Shown here piece after piece: positions 51,340-64,000 of a DNA stretch of 64,000 bases. The stretch is from positions 960,001 to 1,024,000 of the forward strand of contig JAHQIY010000019.1 in the NCBI GenBank assembly GCA_019054805.1, given 5' to 3'. Below the pieces are notes generated by a model. It made no database searches. It had not been told where the DNA came from and saw nothing but the letters and a program-made list of their open reading frames with translations. The first letter of the stretch is position 1, and every line of letters begins with the position of its first letter. This stretch comes from Brachionus manjavacas (lineage: Eukaryota; Rotifera; Eurotatoria; Ploima; Brachionidae). The position numbers and the translations under genes were made by a program.

Positions 51340-52099
51340 ATTATTTATTTATTTATTTGTTTTCTGTACCGAGCTAAAGCTCCTTCAGAATAAGTTTAAA
51401 ATAAAATAAAAATAAAATTAAAATTAATAAAATTAGTTAAAAAAAAAAAATGAATCAAAATAGAGTAAATAAGCTAAAAAAATGAAAGTTGAAAAGACAT
51501 AAATTGGAACAGATTGTTACATGTGGCACATGTTTAAATAGTTCGAGTTTCAGGAAAAAAAGAAGAAATAGTAAGGTAGCAATTACACAATGGAGTTGGG
51601 TATTCAATATATCTTGATTCGAAACCTTCTTTGTATTCCTCCACCAGTCTAACAACCAATGGAATAGAATGTCTCAGTCCTGTCCCAACATATCTCTCAT
51701 TCAACTCAAAAAGACGATTCGAGACTGTTAGTAAATTTAGTTTATTAAAAGCTTCATGTTGCACGATGTTGGAGGGATTATCATATTTTAACTTAAGGAT
51801 ATATCTTACTGCTGTATTCTGAATTGCTTGTAGTTTTTTGATATTATTTTCTGAAAATTAATTCAAGCAAGGAAAGAATAGTCTAAAATCGATCCGACTA
51901 AAGATTTATATAAATTTCCTAGTGTGTTTTGATTGAGACCCCATTTTTTGTTTGACAATATCTTAATAATATTTAACCTTTTATTGCAGCGTTCTTTGAT
52001 TTCGTCTACCAGTACATTAAAGTTTAACTTAGAATCAAATTTAATGCCAAGAAACTTGATTCCTTTTTGGCTCACTATTCTGTTTCCATAAATTATTAG
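51340..52099 (-). mobile_element. LINE-A 3' part, minus strand
   Basis: From 52099 on the minus strand: IIYGNRIVSQKGIKFLGIKF, DSKLNFNVLVDEIKERCNKR, GLNQNTLGNLYKSLVGSILD, then the C-terminal region to the stop, the UTR and the hairpin at 51371-51382 with an (AAATA)n tail. A few frame breaks. It abuts an opposite copy at 52100. Confidence 0.88.
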
Positions 52100-52461
52100 T
52101 TGAGTGAGAGATATGTTGGGGCAGGACTGAGTCATTCTATTCCATTGGTTGTTAGACTGGTGGAGGAATACAAAGAAGGTTTCGAATCAAGATATATTGA
52201 ATACCCAACTCCATTGTGTAATTGCTACCTTACTATTTCTTCTTTTTTTCCTGAAACTCGAACTATTTAAACATGTGCCACATGTAACAATCTGTTCCAA
52301 TTTATGTCTTTTCAACTTTCATTTTTTTAGCTTATTTACTCTATTTTGATTCATTTTTTTTTTTTAACTAATTTTATTAATTTTAATTTTATTTTTATTT
52401 TATTTTAAACTTATTCTGAAGGAGCTTTAGCTCGGTACAGAAAACAAATAAATAAATAAAG
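52100..52461 (+). mobile_element. LINE-A 3' end, plus strand, head-to-head with the previous copy
   Basis: Starts in LSERYVGAGLSHSIPLVVRL and continues to the family 3' end (hairpin 52422-52433, tail AAAACAAATAAATAAATAAA). It is the near-identical inverted copy of 51340-51690. Confidence 0.88.
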
Positions 52462-53459: not shown

Positions 53460-53987
53460 CTATTTAAATTTTCTGACAAAGCCGGGTCTTTGCCCATCAT
53501 CAGCATCGATTGCATCGATCGGTTTCGGTGGTACTCCTTGTGATTGTGTGATGTGAATTCTTGAAAAAAAAAGTCCCAAAGTTTCTACCAATGGTCCAAG
53601 GAAAGCTAGATCAAAAAAAATTAATTTAAAACAAAGTTTTTTCTTTTTTATTTTACCAGCAAGAATAATTGAGTATATTTTTTTGAATGGGTAGAGTATG
53701 ATGTGAATCGCTCTGAGATACGGTGCAAAGCACCAAACAATCGAGAAAGATATTTGGGCAAAAGCACATCCCCATGCCAGTGCGATGCATATGCCACAAA
53801 AAAATGTCATCAATTTATAGCAAACATTTTTGCCACAAGTAAAACACTTGTACGAGTTTCGCCAGACACAGTCAGATGAATGGGTACCAGTAGGCTCGGC
53901 GAACACATCGTCGAACTCAACCTGGATGTAATTGTTCATGTCATTTGGGTCTCTGTTAATCAAATCAATTTCTGGTCTTACGGACAT
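53460..53987 (-). CDS. Caveolin-like protein 1
   Basis: Two exons, 53987-53657 and 53605-53460, intron 51 bp. The intron has no stop and is a multiple of three, so the frame also reads through it; the spliced form of 158 residues aligns better. The caveolin order is complete: PEIDLINRDPNDMNNYIQ, VEF-DDVFAEP, the signature and scaffolding region SDCVWRNSYKCFTCGKNVCY, the membrane hairpin FFCGICIALAWGCAFAQISF with SIVWCFAPYLR, then a C-terminal helix SRIHITQSQGVPPKP. Caveolins oligomerise in the inner leaflet of the plasma membrane. Several cysteines in the scaffolding segment are unusual. Intron position equals the last intron of caveolin-like 2. Minus-strand neighbour of two paralogues. Confidence 0.92.
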   Translation of the reverse strand: MSVRPEIDLINRDPNDMNNYIQVEFDDVFAEPTGTHSSDCVWRNSYKCFTCGKNVCYKLMTFFCGICIALAWGCAFAQISFSIVWCFAPYLRAIHIILYPFKKIYSIILAGKIKKKKLCFKLIFFDLAFLGPLVETLGLFFSRIHITQSQGVPPKPIDAIDADDGQRPGFVRKFK

Positions 53988-54266: not shown

Positions 54267-54891
54267 TTAATTTTTGAAAGATCTTACGCCAGTTCGAGGC
54301 GGGTTTCCAGGCAAACTTCCCAGTGGTTTGGGTGGCTCGCCTTGAGACTGAGTAATGTGAATGCGGCTAAAAATCAGACCATATGTTTCCATTATTGGAC
54401 CAAAAACACCTTGTAATAAAATTAGAAAAAAAAATTAATTAATTATTAAATCAGCACTTGAGAGAACAATGGAGAGAATCTTTTTGACCGAGAAAAGGGT
54501 CACATGCAAACAGCGCATCTGTGGAGTTACGCACCATATTTCGGAAAATGACACCACGGCAAATAGACAACCCCAAAACAAAGCTTTTGATAAAAAAAAT
54601 AGAAGTCTTTTTTTAAACAAGGAAAAATCAGATTACCTATTGGTAAGCCAAAGAAAAATGTTAAAATTTTGTAGCATAAATTTCGGCCACAAGAAAAACA
54701 CTTGAACGAGTTGCGCCAAACACATTCCATCGAGTGAGCACCTTCTGGCTCTGCCAGCACATCATCGAACATCACCTTTGTTTTTTTGATTAATTCTGCT
54801 TTTTAAATCAGAAAAATTTCATTACTTGAACATGGTTGTTTAACACGTTGGGATCCCGGTTTATCAAATCTATTTCGACTTGGCTTGACAT
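54267..54891 (-). CDS. Caveolin-like protein 2
   Basis: Four exons: 54891-54826, 54775-54637, 54583-54458 and 54409-54267, introns 48-53 bp, GT..AG, all in phase, 157 residues. It reads VEIDLINRDPNVLNNHVQ, VMFDDVLAEPEGAHSMECVW, RNSFKCFSCGRNLCYKILTF, ALFWGCLFAVVSFSEIWCVT, then VFGPIMETYGLIFSRIHITQ and SQGEPPKPL, collinear with caveolin-like 1 at roughly half identity. It has two introns (after NNHVQ and within LPIA) that copy 1 lacks; the third is shared. The start is 280 bp upstream of the stop-distal end of copy 1's first exon region, so the genes are tandem. Confidence 0.92.
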
Positions 54892-56039: not shown

Positions 56040-56433
56040 ATATTATGGCATTGTGAAGTTAATGATCAGTTTTTGATGCTCAAAATGATCAAATCAATTT
56101 TTAATTATTAAATAAATTGTTTTTATTTAATACAATAAGTGCAGAGGTACGCTTTTGGATCTAACATACTTAGTGAAATCTAAAGATAAACTCTGCAAAA
56201 GCCTGTAAAATACAAATCACTTAAAATTGTATCATTTAGATGGTGTGCACTCTGCAATGTGCATTTTGATATTGCATAGTCTACTTTTTTATTTCAAAAA
56301 GTTTGTTAAATCCAAAAATGTACCTCTGCACTAATTCTATGTAAAATAACAATTTATTTCATAGTTAAAACTTTATTTGATCATTTTGAGCATCAAAAAT
56401 TGATCACAAACTTCTAAATGCCAAAATTATTAC
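56040..56433. mobile_element. Foldback element of about 394 bp with long inverted arms
   Basis: Left arm 56040-56175 and right arm 56298-56433 are imperfect inverted copies at about 80%. Shared words are TTTTTGATGCTCAAAATG, ATGATCAAAT, AATAAATTGT, AGTGCAGAGGTAC and TTTTGGAT(C/T)TAACA. A non-coding centre of about 120 bp joins them. A single end-like copy lies at 26887-26925. No clear target duplication. Confidence 0.7.
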
Positions 56434-57434: not shown

Positions 57435-58483
57435 TTAAGAAGATAAATTGATGTAATTTCTTTTCTGCAAAAAAATACTCTTTGACTGAATCGAGAGTTG
57501 CTTTGGACTCGGATCATCTTCACTTCCTGACCCAATTCTGATTAAAAACAGACCCAAAACACTTGTTTTAAGAGCCAAGCAAACTTTAAATTAATTAAAC
57601 CATCATTAATTTTTTTTTCAATTAATTCAATTACTTGCAAAAAATATTGAATTGAGTTTTTCTAAGAATCTTAGCAAAAAAGACTGGTATTTAATGTACG
57701 GCATCCGAAGCCAAATATTACAAAATGCACTCAGTCCTAGACAACACCCGCAAAACAATAACCATATTATTGAGACCATAGCACTGAAAAGTTTGTAAAT
57801 AGAAATTTTCGAACACTTAAACAACTCAATCGAAGCTGACCATAACCTAAAATTTTGAATAAATATAAGACTGAAGGCGGAGCAAAAAGTACCCTTCAGG
57901 TAATAGCCACTTCATCGAACACTTTAATACATGAGGATGCATTACAAGGAAACGTAGGATTCGGACTTAGGGAAACACGAATCATAAATTTTAAAGTCGA
58001 TATACCAAAATTATATGGAAACGATAGAGATAAAGTGGATAAATGGATATACCTGATAAAACAGAGGCTAGGAACCAAGGAATTATTAGAAGTAGGCTAA
58101 TAGATTTCGTTACAAACTTCTAAGAAGAAACGCTCTGCAAATGTTTAGATAAGAGAGATGAATTAGTGACGCGGGAAAAATTTAAATATAAATTAGTAGC
58201 AACTCTGAAACCAGCTGATGTTCAAAGAGGACTACGATCAGAACTTAAAAGTATTAAACTAACGTCAAATTTTGAGGACAACATAATAAAATTCTGGCCA
58301 GTTTCTAGAACAGAGTTTGGTTGCGTGTCTTCTGAGCGTGTGGACTCGGGCTCGGCAATTTCATCGCTGAAAAAAATCTTTAAAAAACAAAGAATGACAG
58401 GTTAATTGAATGGTTTAGCCAAGAACTTGGCCAAAATTGTTAATTTTCTTTGGGTCACGTTCAATTAAATCGAACTTTGACGT
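57435..58483 (-). CDS. Caveolin-like protein 3, with element-bearing intron and apparent ACG start
   Basis: Exons 58483-58427, 58377-58325, 57846-57635 and 57583-57435; total 471 bp with frame kept throughout, 156 residues, against 158 and 157 for its paralogues. It reads SKFDLIERDPKKINNFGQ, IFFSDEIAEPESTRSED-T, LWSASIELFKCSKISIYKLF, WLLFCGCCLGLSAFCNIWLR, then LALKTSVLGLFLIRIGSGSE and DDPSPKQL. Introns 1 (after NNFGQ) and 3 occupy the same places as in copies 1 and 2. Two oddities: the codon aligned with the start is ACG with a stop just upstream, and intron 2 (57847-58324) needs a GC donor, splits what is one exon in copy 2, and contains a gag-like remnant. Either a divergent live gene or a young pseudogene; frame preservation favours the former. 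Confidence 0.65.
57870..58300 (+). mobile_element. LTR-retrotransposon gag-like remnant
   Basis: On the strand opposite to caveolin-like 3: INFKVDIPKLYGNDRDKVDK and WIYLIKQRLGTKELLEV, then after stops and a frame change TREKFKYKLVATLKPADVQR, GLRSELKSIKL and NFEDNIIKF. The pattern (I-PKLxG, VxxW, FK..L...L.P..AQ, RxxLxxLK, F..YI..F) is that of gag matrix/capsid regions of Ty3- or Ty1-type elements. No LTRs or pol found. Confidence 0.6.
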
Positions 58484-59202: not shown

Positions 59203-60164
59203 TCAAAAAGTGTCGATTTTTTCATAGGGTGCCTGTCTTTTGAGGCATCGATCTATAAGCCATCCGTAATATTCAGTGTTGTTATTGGCACAACCATTGG
59301 GCCCACCGTTGTGTATTCGGCCCATATGAGCACATGTTGATCCCAGTGAACAAAATGAAGCTTAAAAATTTTTAGATAAAATAAAATTTTTGTTGTGTGA
59401 CAATTTTTACAGTATCTGTTCATGTAGGCTCTGACACATCCCTCGGCACAATTCTTCGAATTGGAGCATTCTTTCCATCCACCACCTGGTTGACCACAGT
59501 CCAGCCAGTATTCATACTTGAGTTGGTACCAACCGCAAGACAGCGAACCCTGGTCCATGACACATCCAACATCACTGCACCACGACTCGATCTAAAATAT
59601 TCATTAAGCTACTGCTAAAAATTGGCAAAATAAAATTGATTACGAAACACAAACACTTGAGACATTGATCGGTTACGCCAAAGCTCGGATTGATCCCGGC
59701 CTGTATGGAGTCGATAAAATTTGTCTTTGCAGTTGAGCCTGAGTTAAAAAAAACCTGTTTCCAGTCAACATTTGTGGTTGTTGTCAATGGTGGGAATGTG
59801 TATGGCGCAGGTGTAGTGTACCAAGTAGTAGGCTGGGTCCAGCCAGTCCACTTGGTTGTTGTAGTGACTAAAATGTTGTTAGAATTTTATTCAAGATATT
59901 TTTTTAATTGTTACATCGTGTTGATGGAGGAGTCCGTCGCCAAGAGTCTTGGCTATTCTGAGGGTACCTATTTTGATTGTGCAAATGTTGAACTTGCTGC
60001 TTTTGCTTATTATTTATTTGATGGTAGTAGGCATGCTGGTAATTTGGAGGCTCGTAGCCTCTGACTGGCTGATAACCGTGAGGTGGGTGATAGTTTTCGA
60101 CTTTAATGAAGCCTTGACCAGAACAATGATTTAGCACTAAAAAAACTACAATTGTGGTTATCAT
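59203..60164 (-). CDS. Invertebrate-type (i-type) lysozyme with Pro/Thr/Tyr-rich linker
   Basis: Four exons: 60164-59915, 59867-59644, 59591-59411 and 59360-59203, introns 47-52 bp, in phase, 270 residues. The signal peptide is MITTIVVFLVLNHCSGQG, followed by a linker of about 125 residues rich in H, Y, P, Q, then T, W, P. The lysozyme domain begins TDQCLKCLCFIESWCSDVGC, then VMDQGSLSCGWYQLKYEYWL, DCGQPGGGWKECSNSKNCAE, GCVRAYMNRY and MGRIHNGGPNGCANNNTEYY. These are the landmarks of i-type (destabilase) lysozymes, including the catalytic Glu (FIES) and Asp (VMDQG) and the usual cysteine ladder. It cleaves peptidoglycan, in digestion or defence. The long linker is not typical of the family and may tether it to mucus or chitin. 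Confidence 0.95.
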
Positions 60165-61956: not shown

Positions 61957-64000
61957 ATGAAAGGGAAAATAATATTGGCCTTGTTAATTTTGTTCTATCA
62001 AAAAGAAGAGGTCAAGGCCAAAAAGTTGACCAAGAACGGTAGGTTGAATTAAAATGGAACTTTTTGTGATATTTTTTTGTCCAGAAAAGCTTCTAATGAA
62101 TGAGGACTTGATTTTCTATGAAAATGAACCAAAGTACAATGTGAAAAGACAAGTGAATTTCAATTTAGAATTTGGTTCGGGTCTGTCCGAGGGTAATGCT
62201 AAATTGAAAATTAATTTAATCGGATTAAATTTTGGATTAAAATTTAAGAACCGACAACTTTATTTGGGAATACAACATTTTTTTCTACGATAACTGATCA
62301 GACAACTTTGTTTGTAAATCTATGCGATTCGAATCCGTGTGCATCGAATACGACCTGTTTGAATTTAGGCGATGTGTATGAATGTGAATGTAATGAAGGA
62401 TTTGTTTACAACAATGTGCAAACAAGTTGTCAAGACAAAGATGAGTGTGCATTAAACATTTCTAATTGTGGAGAAAATGAAAAGTGTGTAAATACAATTG
62501 GAAGTTTTAAATGCATTTGTGCAGATGGATACGAATTAGTAAATAATGTATGTGAACAGATAACTTCAGAGACACCTAGTACCCAATTTGAATCAGAAAT
62601 AATTGAGACTACAGAAACAACAACGACTCCAATTCCAATTGTACCCAGTAAAAATAGTTTTATTGTGTACAATTAATATATTTAAATTTTTTTTTAAGTA
62701 TTGGGGCAAAATGATGTTTCCTTAAAAAATTTGTCTCTTATTGGCAACGATCAAAGTTACGAATTTACTTCGCCCAATGTATCGCTTAATATTCTAGGCT
62801 CATCTTTCAATTCTTTTAGAGTAATTTTATTTTTTGTTTAATTATTTTAATTAAAAGGAAATTTTAGGTTCAACCAAACGGATTTGTTTCATTTAGTGGT
62901 GAAGCTCCAAATTTGATTCAAGACCCACCAGGCTCAATAAAAGATCTTAATTTTCCAATAATTGCTCCATTTTGGTCAAATTCAATAATTGACGATGTAA
63001 AAAAAAACATTATTTTATTTTTTAAATTTTATTTTTATTTCCCATAAATTAGCAATCTGATATAAAATTCGGAACTTACCAAGAAAACGACATGGATCAA
63101 AATTTACTTGAGAAGATTAGAGGACTCTTAAATCGTCCTTCTAAACGAAGGTCAGTCTCTTTAGACGTCTTTGATCCAGAGCTTATTTATTCTATTACAT
63201 GGGAAGATCTAAAAGAATCAACAATATCAGATAAAGTATAAAAGCAAGTTTAATCTTAATGAAATTAATTCATAAAAAATAATTTAGAGAGCGACTTTTC
63301 AATTATTCATAACGACTTCATTTACGCAAGAAACATCATATGCTATTTTCAACTATATAAAAATTGACTGGACAGAATTTGATCAGGAAATTGTGTTTAT
63401 TGGTCTAACTGACGGAAAAAATAGCATAACGAACCCATTCACATCAAATAACGATGTATCAGGAAAACCAAGTTTAATTACAAGCCAACCAGGAAATACA
63501 GGGAAAAATGGAGTATATATATACAAACTAGAATTCGCAGATGAAATGACAAACGAAATAAGAGAAACGACAGACAGAGAAGAAAACGAAACGACTTTTT
63601 CGACAACAACTTCCTCTACTTCAACTAGACCCACAACATTGGGTGATGAAACTACAGAAGATATCGGGGTTGAAACTGAAGAAACTGAAACGACTTTTTC
63701 GACAACAACTTCCTCTACTTCGACTAGACCCACAACATTGGGCGATGTAACAACAGAAAATATCGTGGTTGAAACTGAAGAAACTGAAACGACTCTTTCG
63801 ACAACAACTTCCTCTTCTTCAACAAGACCAACAACATTGGGTGATGAAACTACTGAAGAGACTGAAACGACTCTTTCGACAACAACTTCCTCTACTTCAA
63901 CAAGACCCACAACATTGGGTGATGAAACTACAGAAGATATCGGGGTTGAAACTGAAGAAACTGAAACGACTCTTTTGACAACAGCTTCCTCTACTTCAAC
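61957..64000 (+). CDS. Secreted EGF-EGF-NIDO protein with mucin-like repeats (runs off window)
   Basis: Seven exons so far: 61957-62038, 62085-62192, 62249-62647, 62699-62820, 62868-62996, 63053-63235 and 63288 to beyond 64000, introns 46-57 bp, in phase, about 578 residues visible. The signal peptide is MKGKIILALLILFYQKEEVK. An EGF module (LCDSNPCASNTTCLNLG...CECNEGF) is followed by a calcium-binding EGF (DKDECALNISNCGENEKCVN, GSFKCICADGYELV). A NIDO domain comes next (IIAPFWSNSIIDD, SITWEDLKESTISDK, RATFQLFITTSFTQETSYAI), then a 33-residue Ser/Thr repeat (ETTFSTTTSSTSTRPTTLGD) in 99-bp units. NIDO plus EGF plus Ser/Thr repeats is the layout of nidogen-, alpha-tectorin- and MUC4-type extracellular or membrane-tethered proteins. 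Confidence 0.9.
63588..64000 (+). repeat. 99-bp coding tandem repeat
   Basis: Units begin GAAACGACT at about 63588, 63687, 63786, 63864 and 63963, i.e. spacing 99, 99, 78 and 99 bp. The fourth unit lacks 21 bp (7 codons), keeping frame. Units differ at only a few positions, so the array is young. It continues past the window. Confidence 0.9.

Follow-up and report, generated by a model that had tools for sequence, protein, structure and literature searches.

Is the coding exon of a Brachionus manjavacas caveolin gene, interrupted by retrotransposon DNA, restored by splicing, or does it belong to a young pseudogene? The window analysed, a stretch of 64,000 nucleotides, has a G+C content of 27%, and its introns are short (near 50 bp). 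The caveolin gene referred to here as copy 3 (58483-57435, minus strand) yields 156 stop-free codons after removal of three intervals, two of which are ordinary introns of 49 and 51 bp at sites common to its paralogues. An earlier note, made from the letters alone, had proposed that the third interval, of 478 bp, splits an exon that is single in copy 2. This was borne out, as copy 2, copy 1 and three more caveolins are uninterrupted at this position. The codon split was likewise as described (GAC AC|G TTA TGG at 58325/57846), and removal of the interval, along with the two short introns, restores a protein of 156 codons; copies 2 and 1 have 157-158, and the three distant caveolins 140-152. The features of the locus are collected in Table 1.

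Table 1 Caveolin copies of the window, with the parts of copy 3 and the retrotransposon fragment.
Feature	Position	Strand	Remarks
Caveolin copy 1	53460..53987	-	one 51-bp intron; 158 aa
Caveolin copy 2	54267..54891	-	three introns, 48-53 bp; 157 aa
Copy 3 exon 1	58427..58483	-	starts with ACG (58483-58481); paralogues have ATG
Copy 3 intron 1	58378..58426	-	49 bp, GTTCTT..TTTTAAAG; position shared with copy 2 intron 1
Copy 3 exon 2	58325..58377	-	ends GAC AC
Candidate GC..AG intron	57847..58324	-	478 bp, GCAACC..TTTTAG; absent in five other caveolins
Internal gag fragment of LTR retrotransposon (taken to be Ty3-type)	57858..58303	+	antisense to caveolin; ends uncertain by some 5-20 bp
Copy 3 exon 3	57635..57846	-	begins G TTA TGG
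Copy 3 intron 3	57584..57634	-	51 bp, GTAATT..TTTAAAG; site common to all five other copies
Copy 3 exon 4	57435..57583	-	includes stop TAA

A search of the genome (114 Mb) with the Pfam caveolin profile returned seven matches that correspond to six genes, half of them in the window and the other three approximately 240 kb away, and all six were modelled. The distant three (L008, L009) are 92-99% identical in protein sequence among themselves, with 5' coding DNA that is nearly the same as judged by eye, which suggests a recent duplication or gene conversion. The joined copy 3 protein reaches 82.8 bits with the Pfam caveolin profile (PF01146, positions 6-115 of 133), well above the 25-bit cut-off, while the segments upstream and downstream of the insert score 27.8 and 36.4 bits when taken alone; the join is therefore not a product of chance. 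The paralogues score higher than copy 3, with 112.6 bits for copy 2 and 101.5 bits each for copy A and copy 1. Alignment with human caveolin-1 (7sc0; E 5.8e-16, 62.3 bits) is free of gaps at the junction, with two one-residue gaps elsewhere, and the core of copy 3 aligns gap-free with the paralogues. The caveolin family signature FEDVIAEP, found as such in human caveolin-1, reads FSDEIAEP in copy 3, FDDVFAEP in copy 1 and FDDVLAEP in copy 2. The first intron of copies 2 and 3 presumably occupies an intron site of vertebrate caveolins too. A literature search gave no paper on caveolin gene structure by title, and nothing useful by title on caveolins in rotifers among the matches listed.

The earlier note held that restoring the protein needs a GC..AG intron. 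To judge the splice sites, we examined 14 exon junctions of proteasome and chaperonin genes, 13 of which were resolved as GT..AG and one of which had no solution; a GC choice was also present at 3 of the 13, and GT was taken. Together with eight caveolin introns these 13 formed a training set of 21. Among 48 stop-free pairs that keep the reading frame, 58324/57847 obtained the top score, and no other left the net number of residues unchanged, in line with the claim. The donor itself is poor: CAC|GCAACC scores -1.2, below all 21 training donors (2.8-11.6), none of which has C at position -1, and the same donor with GT in place of GC would score 3.7, low but in range. The acceptor, at 7.1, lies within the training range of 4.7-8.7. 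For comparison, the donor of copy 3 intron 1, which stands outside the training set, is weak (3.9) and still within range. All 22 other modelled introns use GT, which was preferred where GC was also available. GC-AG is put at 0.8% of coding-gene junctions, in human and mouse alike, in the account given in PMC7242645, and new Drosophila introns are described as having weaker splice sites in PMC2809761.

The insert was further said to hold an antisense gag-like remnant, and this too was confirmed, by way of relatives of the insert. Elsewhere in the genome its DNA has 43 matches, some being adjoining pieces of one place; 30 of the 44 matches were fetched as loci, including that of copy 3, and of the remaining 29, 23 span nearly the whole fragment. 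The one relative scanned for domains, L011, carries a gag open reading frame beside reverse transcriptase and RNase H (PF03732, with PF00078 and PF17919), which identifies the source as an LTR element. We take this to be of the Ty3 type rather than another LTR group, on the basis of features characteristic of that type. A Pfam search of the two frames of the insert itself gave no match. The element match covers approximately 446 of the 478 bp, or 416 bp with most copies in a stricter search (57879 to 58294).

The fragment is internal, with neither LTR in the insert. Most fetched copies are alike beyond it when pairs in the same orientation are compared, and the likeness of the copy 3 locus is confined to about 57858 to 58303. 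A plain mobile element with its own ends was discarded, given that most other copies remain alike past at least one end of the fragment and that the insert is without LTRs. At the two edges some 27-32 bp, both splice sites included, are not clearly element-matching; similarity there is low, but comparably low values also occur within the exon. The insert borders are CAC|GC and TTTTAG|G, not AG|GT and AG|G. We found no convincing target-site duplication at the insert edges, where the longest shared word is 7 nt; its right copy lies inside the element match, and a word at least as long occurred in 95 of 1000 shuffles.

The surroundings of the gene hold several other features. A near-palindrome resembling a foldback miniature transposon lies between copies 2 and 3 (56042-56427), with outer arms of 83 nt that are 87% complementary (56042-56124 and 56345-56427) and inner arms that are 77% complementary (56121-56198 and 56272-56349). 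An invertebrate-type lysozyme (59253-59591, minus strand; Destabilase PF05497, E 1.4e-12) adjoins the caveolins, and an open frame with calcium-binding EGF domains (PF07645) is found at 62248-62676 on the plus strand. A nearly identical 72-aa frame occurs on opposite strands (51455-51673, minus; 52131-52349, plus), indicating an inverted repeat within 51.4-52.4 kb; two other frames in this region had no Pfam match at E 0.01. A short tandem peptide repeat with QQLPLLQQD units is located at 63751-63978 (plus strand).

The relatives of the fragment also provide a clock. The insert differs from the 23 other copies by 10-20% (median 11.6%), and its terminal branch is 0.075 (0.051-0.118 as the 5-95% range of 60 bootstraps). 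The description of the insertion as recent is to be taken in relative terms. Private to the insert are 18 substitutions in 432 columns, which fall 8, 3 and 7 on gag codon positions 1, 2 and 3 with no third-position excess, and four deletions of 3, 1, 1 and 8 bp. The copy 3 exons contain no stop and no frameshift. When 0.042-0.097 substitutions per site and the deletion rate of the insert are applied to the exons, the probability that they would be free of stops and frameshifts after neutral decay since the insertion is 0.0019-0.028, a figure that depends on four indels and on a clock that presumes the fragment aged at its present site. As intact exons are improbable under neutral decay, the frame was probably held after the insertion, and holding the frame needs splicing; the comparison favours a copy 3 that was spliced after the insertion. 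Some of the divergence may predate the insertion, which would weaken the frame test, since all 42 differences of the insert from the commonest base lean towards third positions (14, 8 and 20) and the insert groups in the tree with a divergent copy, L035.

The protein has changed rapidly. Of 74 residues that do not vary among the other five caveolins, copy 3 keeps 33, and of the 37 still invariant when human caveolin-1 is added, it keeps 22; it has 40 of 127 residues in common with human caveolin-1, compared with 49-52 for the others. At sites where the other five agree, copy 3 differs at 28/71, 40/105 and 16/27 of codon positions 1, 2 and 3. The corresponding counts, set against the rest without copy 3, are 17/88, 10/115 and 21/48 for copy 2 and 18/89, 6/111 and 18/45 for copy 1. 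Copy 3 is under weaker constraint than its paralogues, with third positions still changing most. A crude dN/dS was computable for copy 3 against copy 1 (0.44) and copy 2 (0.23) only, with synonymous sites near saturation (pS 0.68-0.87, copy 3 versus others), and we consequently relied on the codon-position counts and the insert clock instead.

The codon aligned with Met1 is indeed ACG, as the earlier note had it, with TAA directly before, so that copy 3 lacks the AUG start of a working gene. An alternative first exon with an ATG, reached through an acceptor at 58474, is conceivable on paper and finds no support in the alignment. Both departures from the usual signals, ACG for ATG at 58482 and GC for GT at 58323, would correspond to a single T to C substitution in the coding strand, maybe a coincidence.

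Three features speak against a working copy 3: its ACG start, a donor that scores below every one of the 21 training donors, and the fast protein change. The main rival to splicing is accordingly a young pseudogene, a fast-evolving caveolin silenced by the insertion or by loss of its ATG so lately that stops and frameshifts would not yet have arisen, and in which the GC..AG at the insert edges would be chance; we regard this as a serious possibility that falls somewhat below an even judgement. The start codon with its upstream TAA, the very weak donor and the relaxed protein evolution would all be expected of it, and the nine genome-search matches include no intronless second copy 3. A gene dead at insertion is, however, difficult to reconcile with the intact 156-codon frame, given its low probability on the insert clock, and chance edges would have to explain why the length-preserving splice pair coincides with the top scorer of 48. 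Death well after the insertion, for example by the start-codon change, would be compatible with the frame test. Taken together, a spliced, repeat-bearing GC..AG intron appears better supported than the young pseudogene, and our reading is of a predicted spliced intron, bearing a retrotransposon piece, in a divergent caveolin paralogue; on the sequence evidence we see this reading as about evenly poised. Were splicing to use another donor or acceptor, with the insert partly retained or the exon partly lost and the loop shorter or longer, 47 more in-frame pairs would be available, such as 58345/57846 (seven residues fewer) or 58311/57815 (six fewer). All of them score lower than the GC..AG pair and none preserves protein length, which makes this option quite improbable.

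A further explanation is compatible with splicing and concerns the maker of the intron. The earlier note saw, on condition of splicing, a mobile-element insertion that became an intron; the retrotransposon sequence, its absence in five paralogues and the intact frame stand, and a transposon origin of the intron itself does not follow from them. With about 27-32 bp of edge sequence not clearly matching the element and no target-site duplication found, the gag fragment may instead have entered a small earlier intron of copy 3, an alternative we place only a little short of evenly balanced. Both splice sites lie outside the element match, the donor would be one T to C step from an in-range GT site, and copy 2, with a private intron, indicates that the caveolin family has gained or lost introns. 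On the other hand, the site is free of introns in all five other caveolins, and the nine other caveolin introns measure 48-56 bp, more than 27-32 bp, so that a deletion would be required as well; the edge alignment is also weak, such that diverged element sequence could still be present there.

For the predicted GC..AG intron, we propose that an internal piece of approximately 446 bp from a Ty3-type element, in antisense orientation, would have split the second coding exon of copy 3. Because the piece has no LTRs and no target-site duplication was found, its entry probably did not depend on the integration machinery of the element, and it may for instance have served as filler in double-strand break repair. 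Splicing of the whole 478 bp as a GC..AG intron would since have been efficient enough to let selection hold the 156-codon frame. The complete chain, in which an antisense gag fragment captured in an exon through break repair serves as the GC..AG intron of an expressed caveolin that starts at ACG, seems unlikely as a whole.

Seven proposed routes of intron gain, including transposon insertion and break repair, are set out in a 2012 review, which attributes 35 unambiguous gains to transposon insertion and 5 to break repair (PMC3443670). The copy 3 insert resembles the former in that a repeat lies in a coding exon, its removal restores the frame and paralogues are without it. In the model presented there, insertion occurs at AGGT and duplication makes AG|GT and AG|G, with splice sites in the transposon or latent ones nearby also allowed; in contrast, copy 3 has a CAC|G site and a GC donor, the search for a duplication gave none, and the inserted piece comes from the interior of the element. 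The resemblance to break repair is that the filler is foreign and lacks the ends of an element, although the version in PMC3443670 produces short direct repeats through gap filling, and none beyond chance could be demonstrated in copy 3. Another parallel is the Evelknievel retroelement, spliced out of exon 13 of Arabidopsis CMT1 such that intact mRNA is rebuilt (PMC6238269). Both are exonic retroelements; splicing was shown in RNA and removed an entire element in the Arabidopsis case, whereas for copy 3 it is deduced from sequence and concerns a gag fragment. The Introner families reported in PMC9860276 account for 27,563 introns in 175 genomes and, like the candidate intron of copy 3, are transposon-derived. 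They are described there as families of intron-making elements that mostly fit DNA transposition, as opposed to one case from an LTR element in copy 3.

Transposon-linked intron gain is thus already known, and copy 3 would be one further case. Few single intron gains can be traced to a known source, and in copy 3 the foreign sequence is still recognisable and can be dated against its relatives. With five paralogues that have no intron at the site, this recognisable, datable insert could reveal how an insertion persists despite a poor donor in a gene under relaxed constraint.
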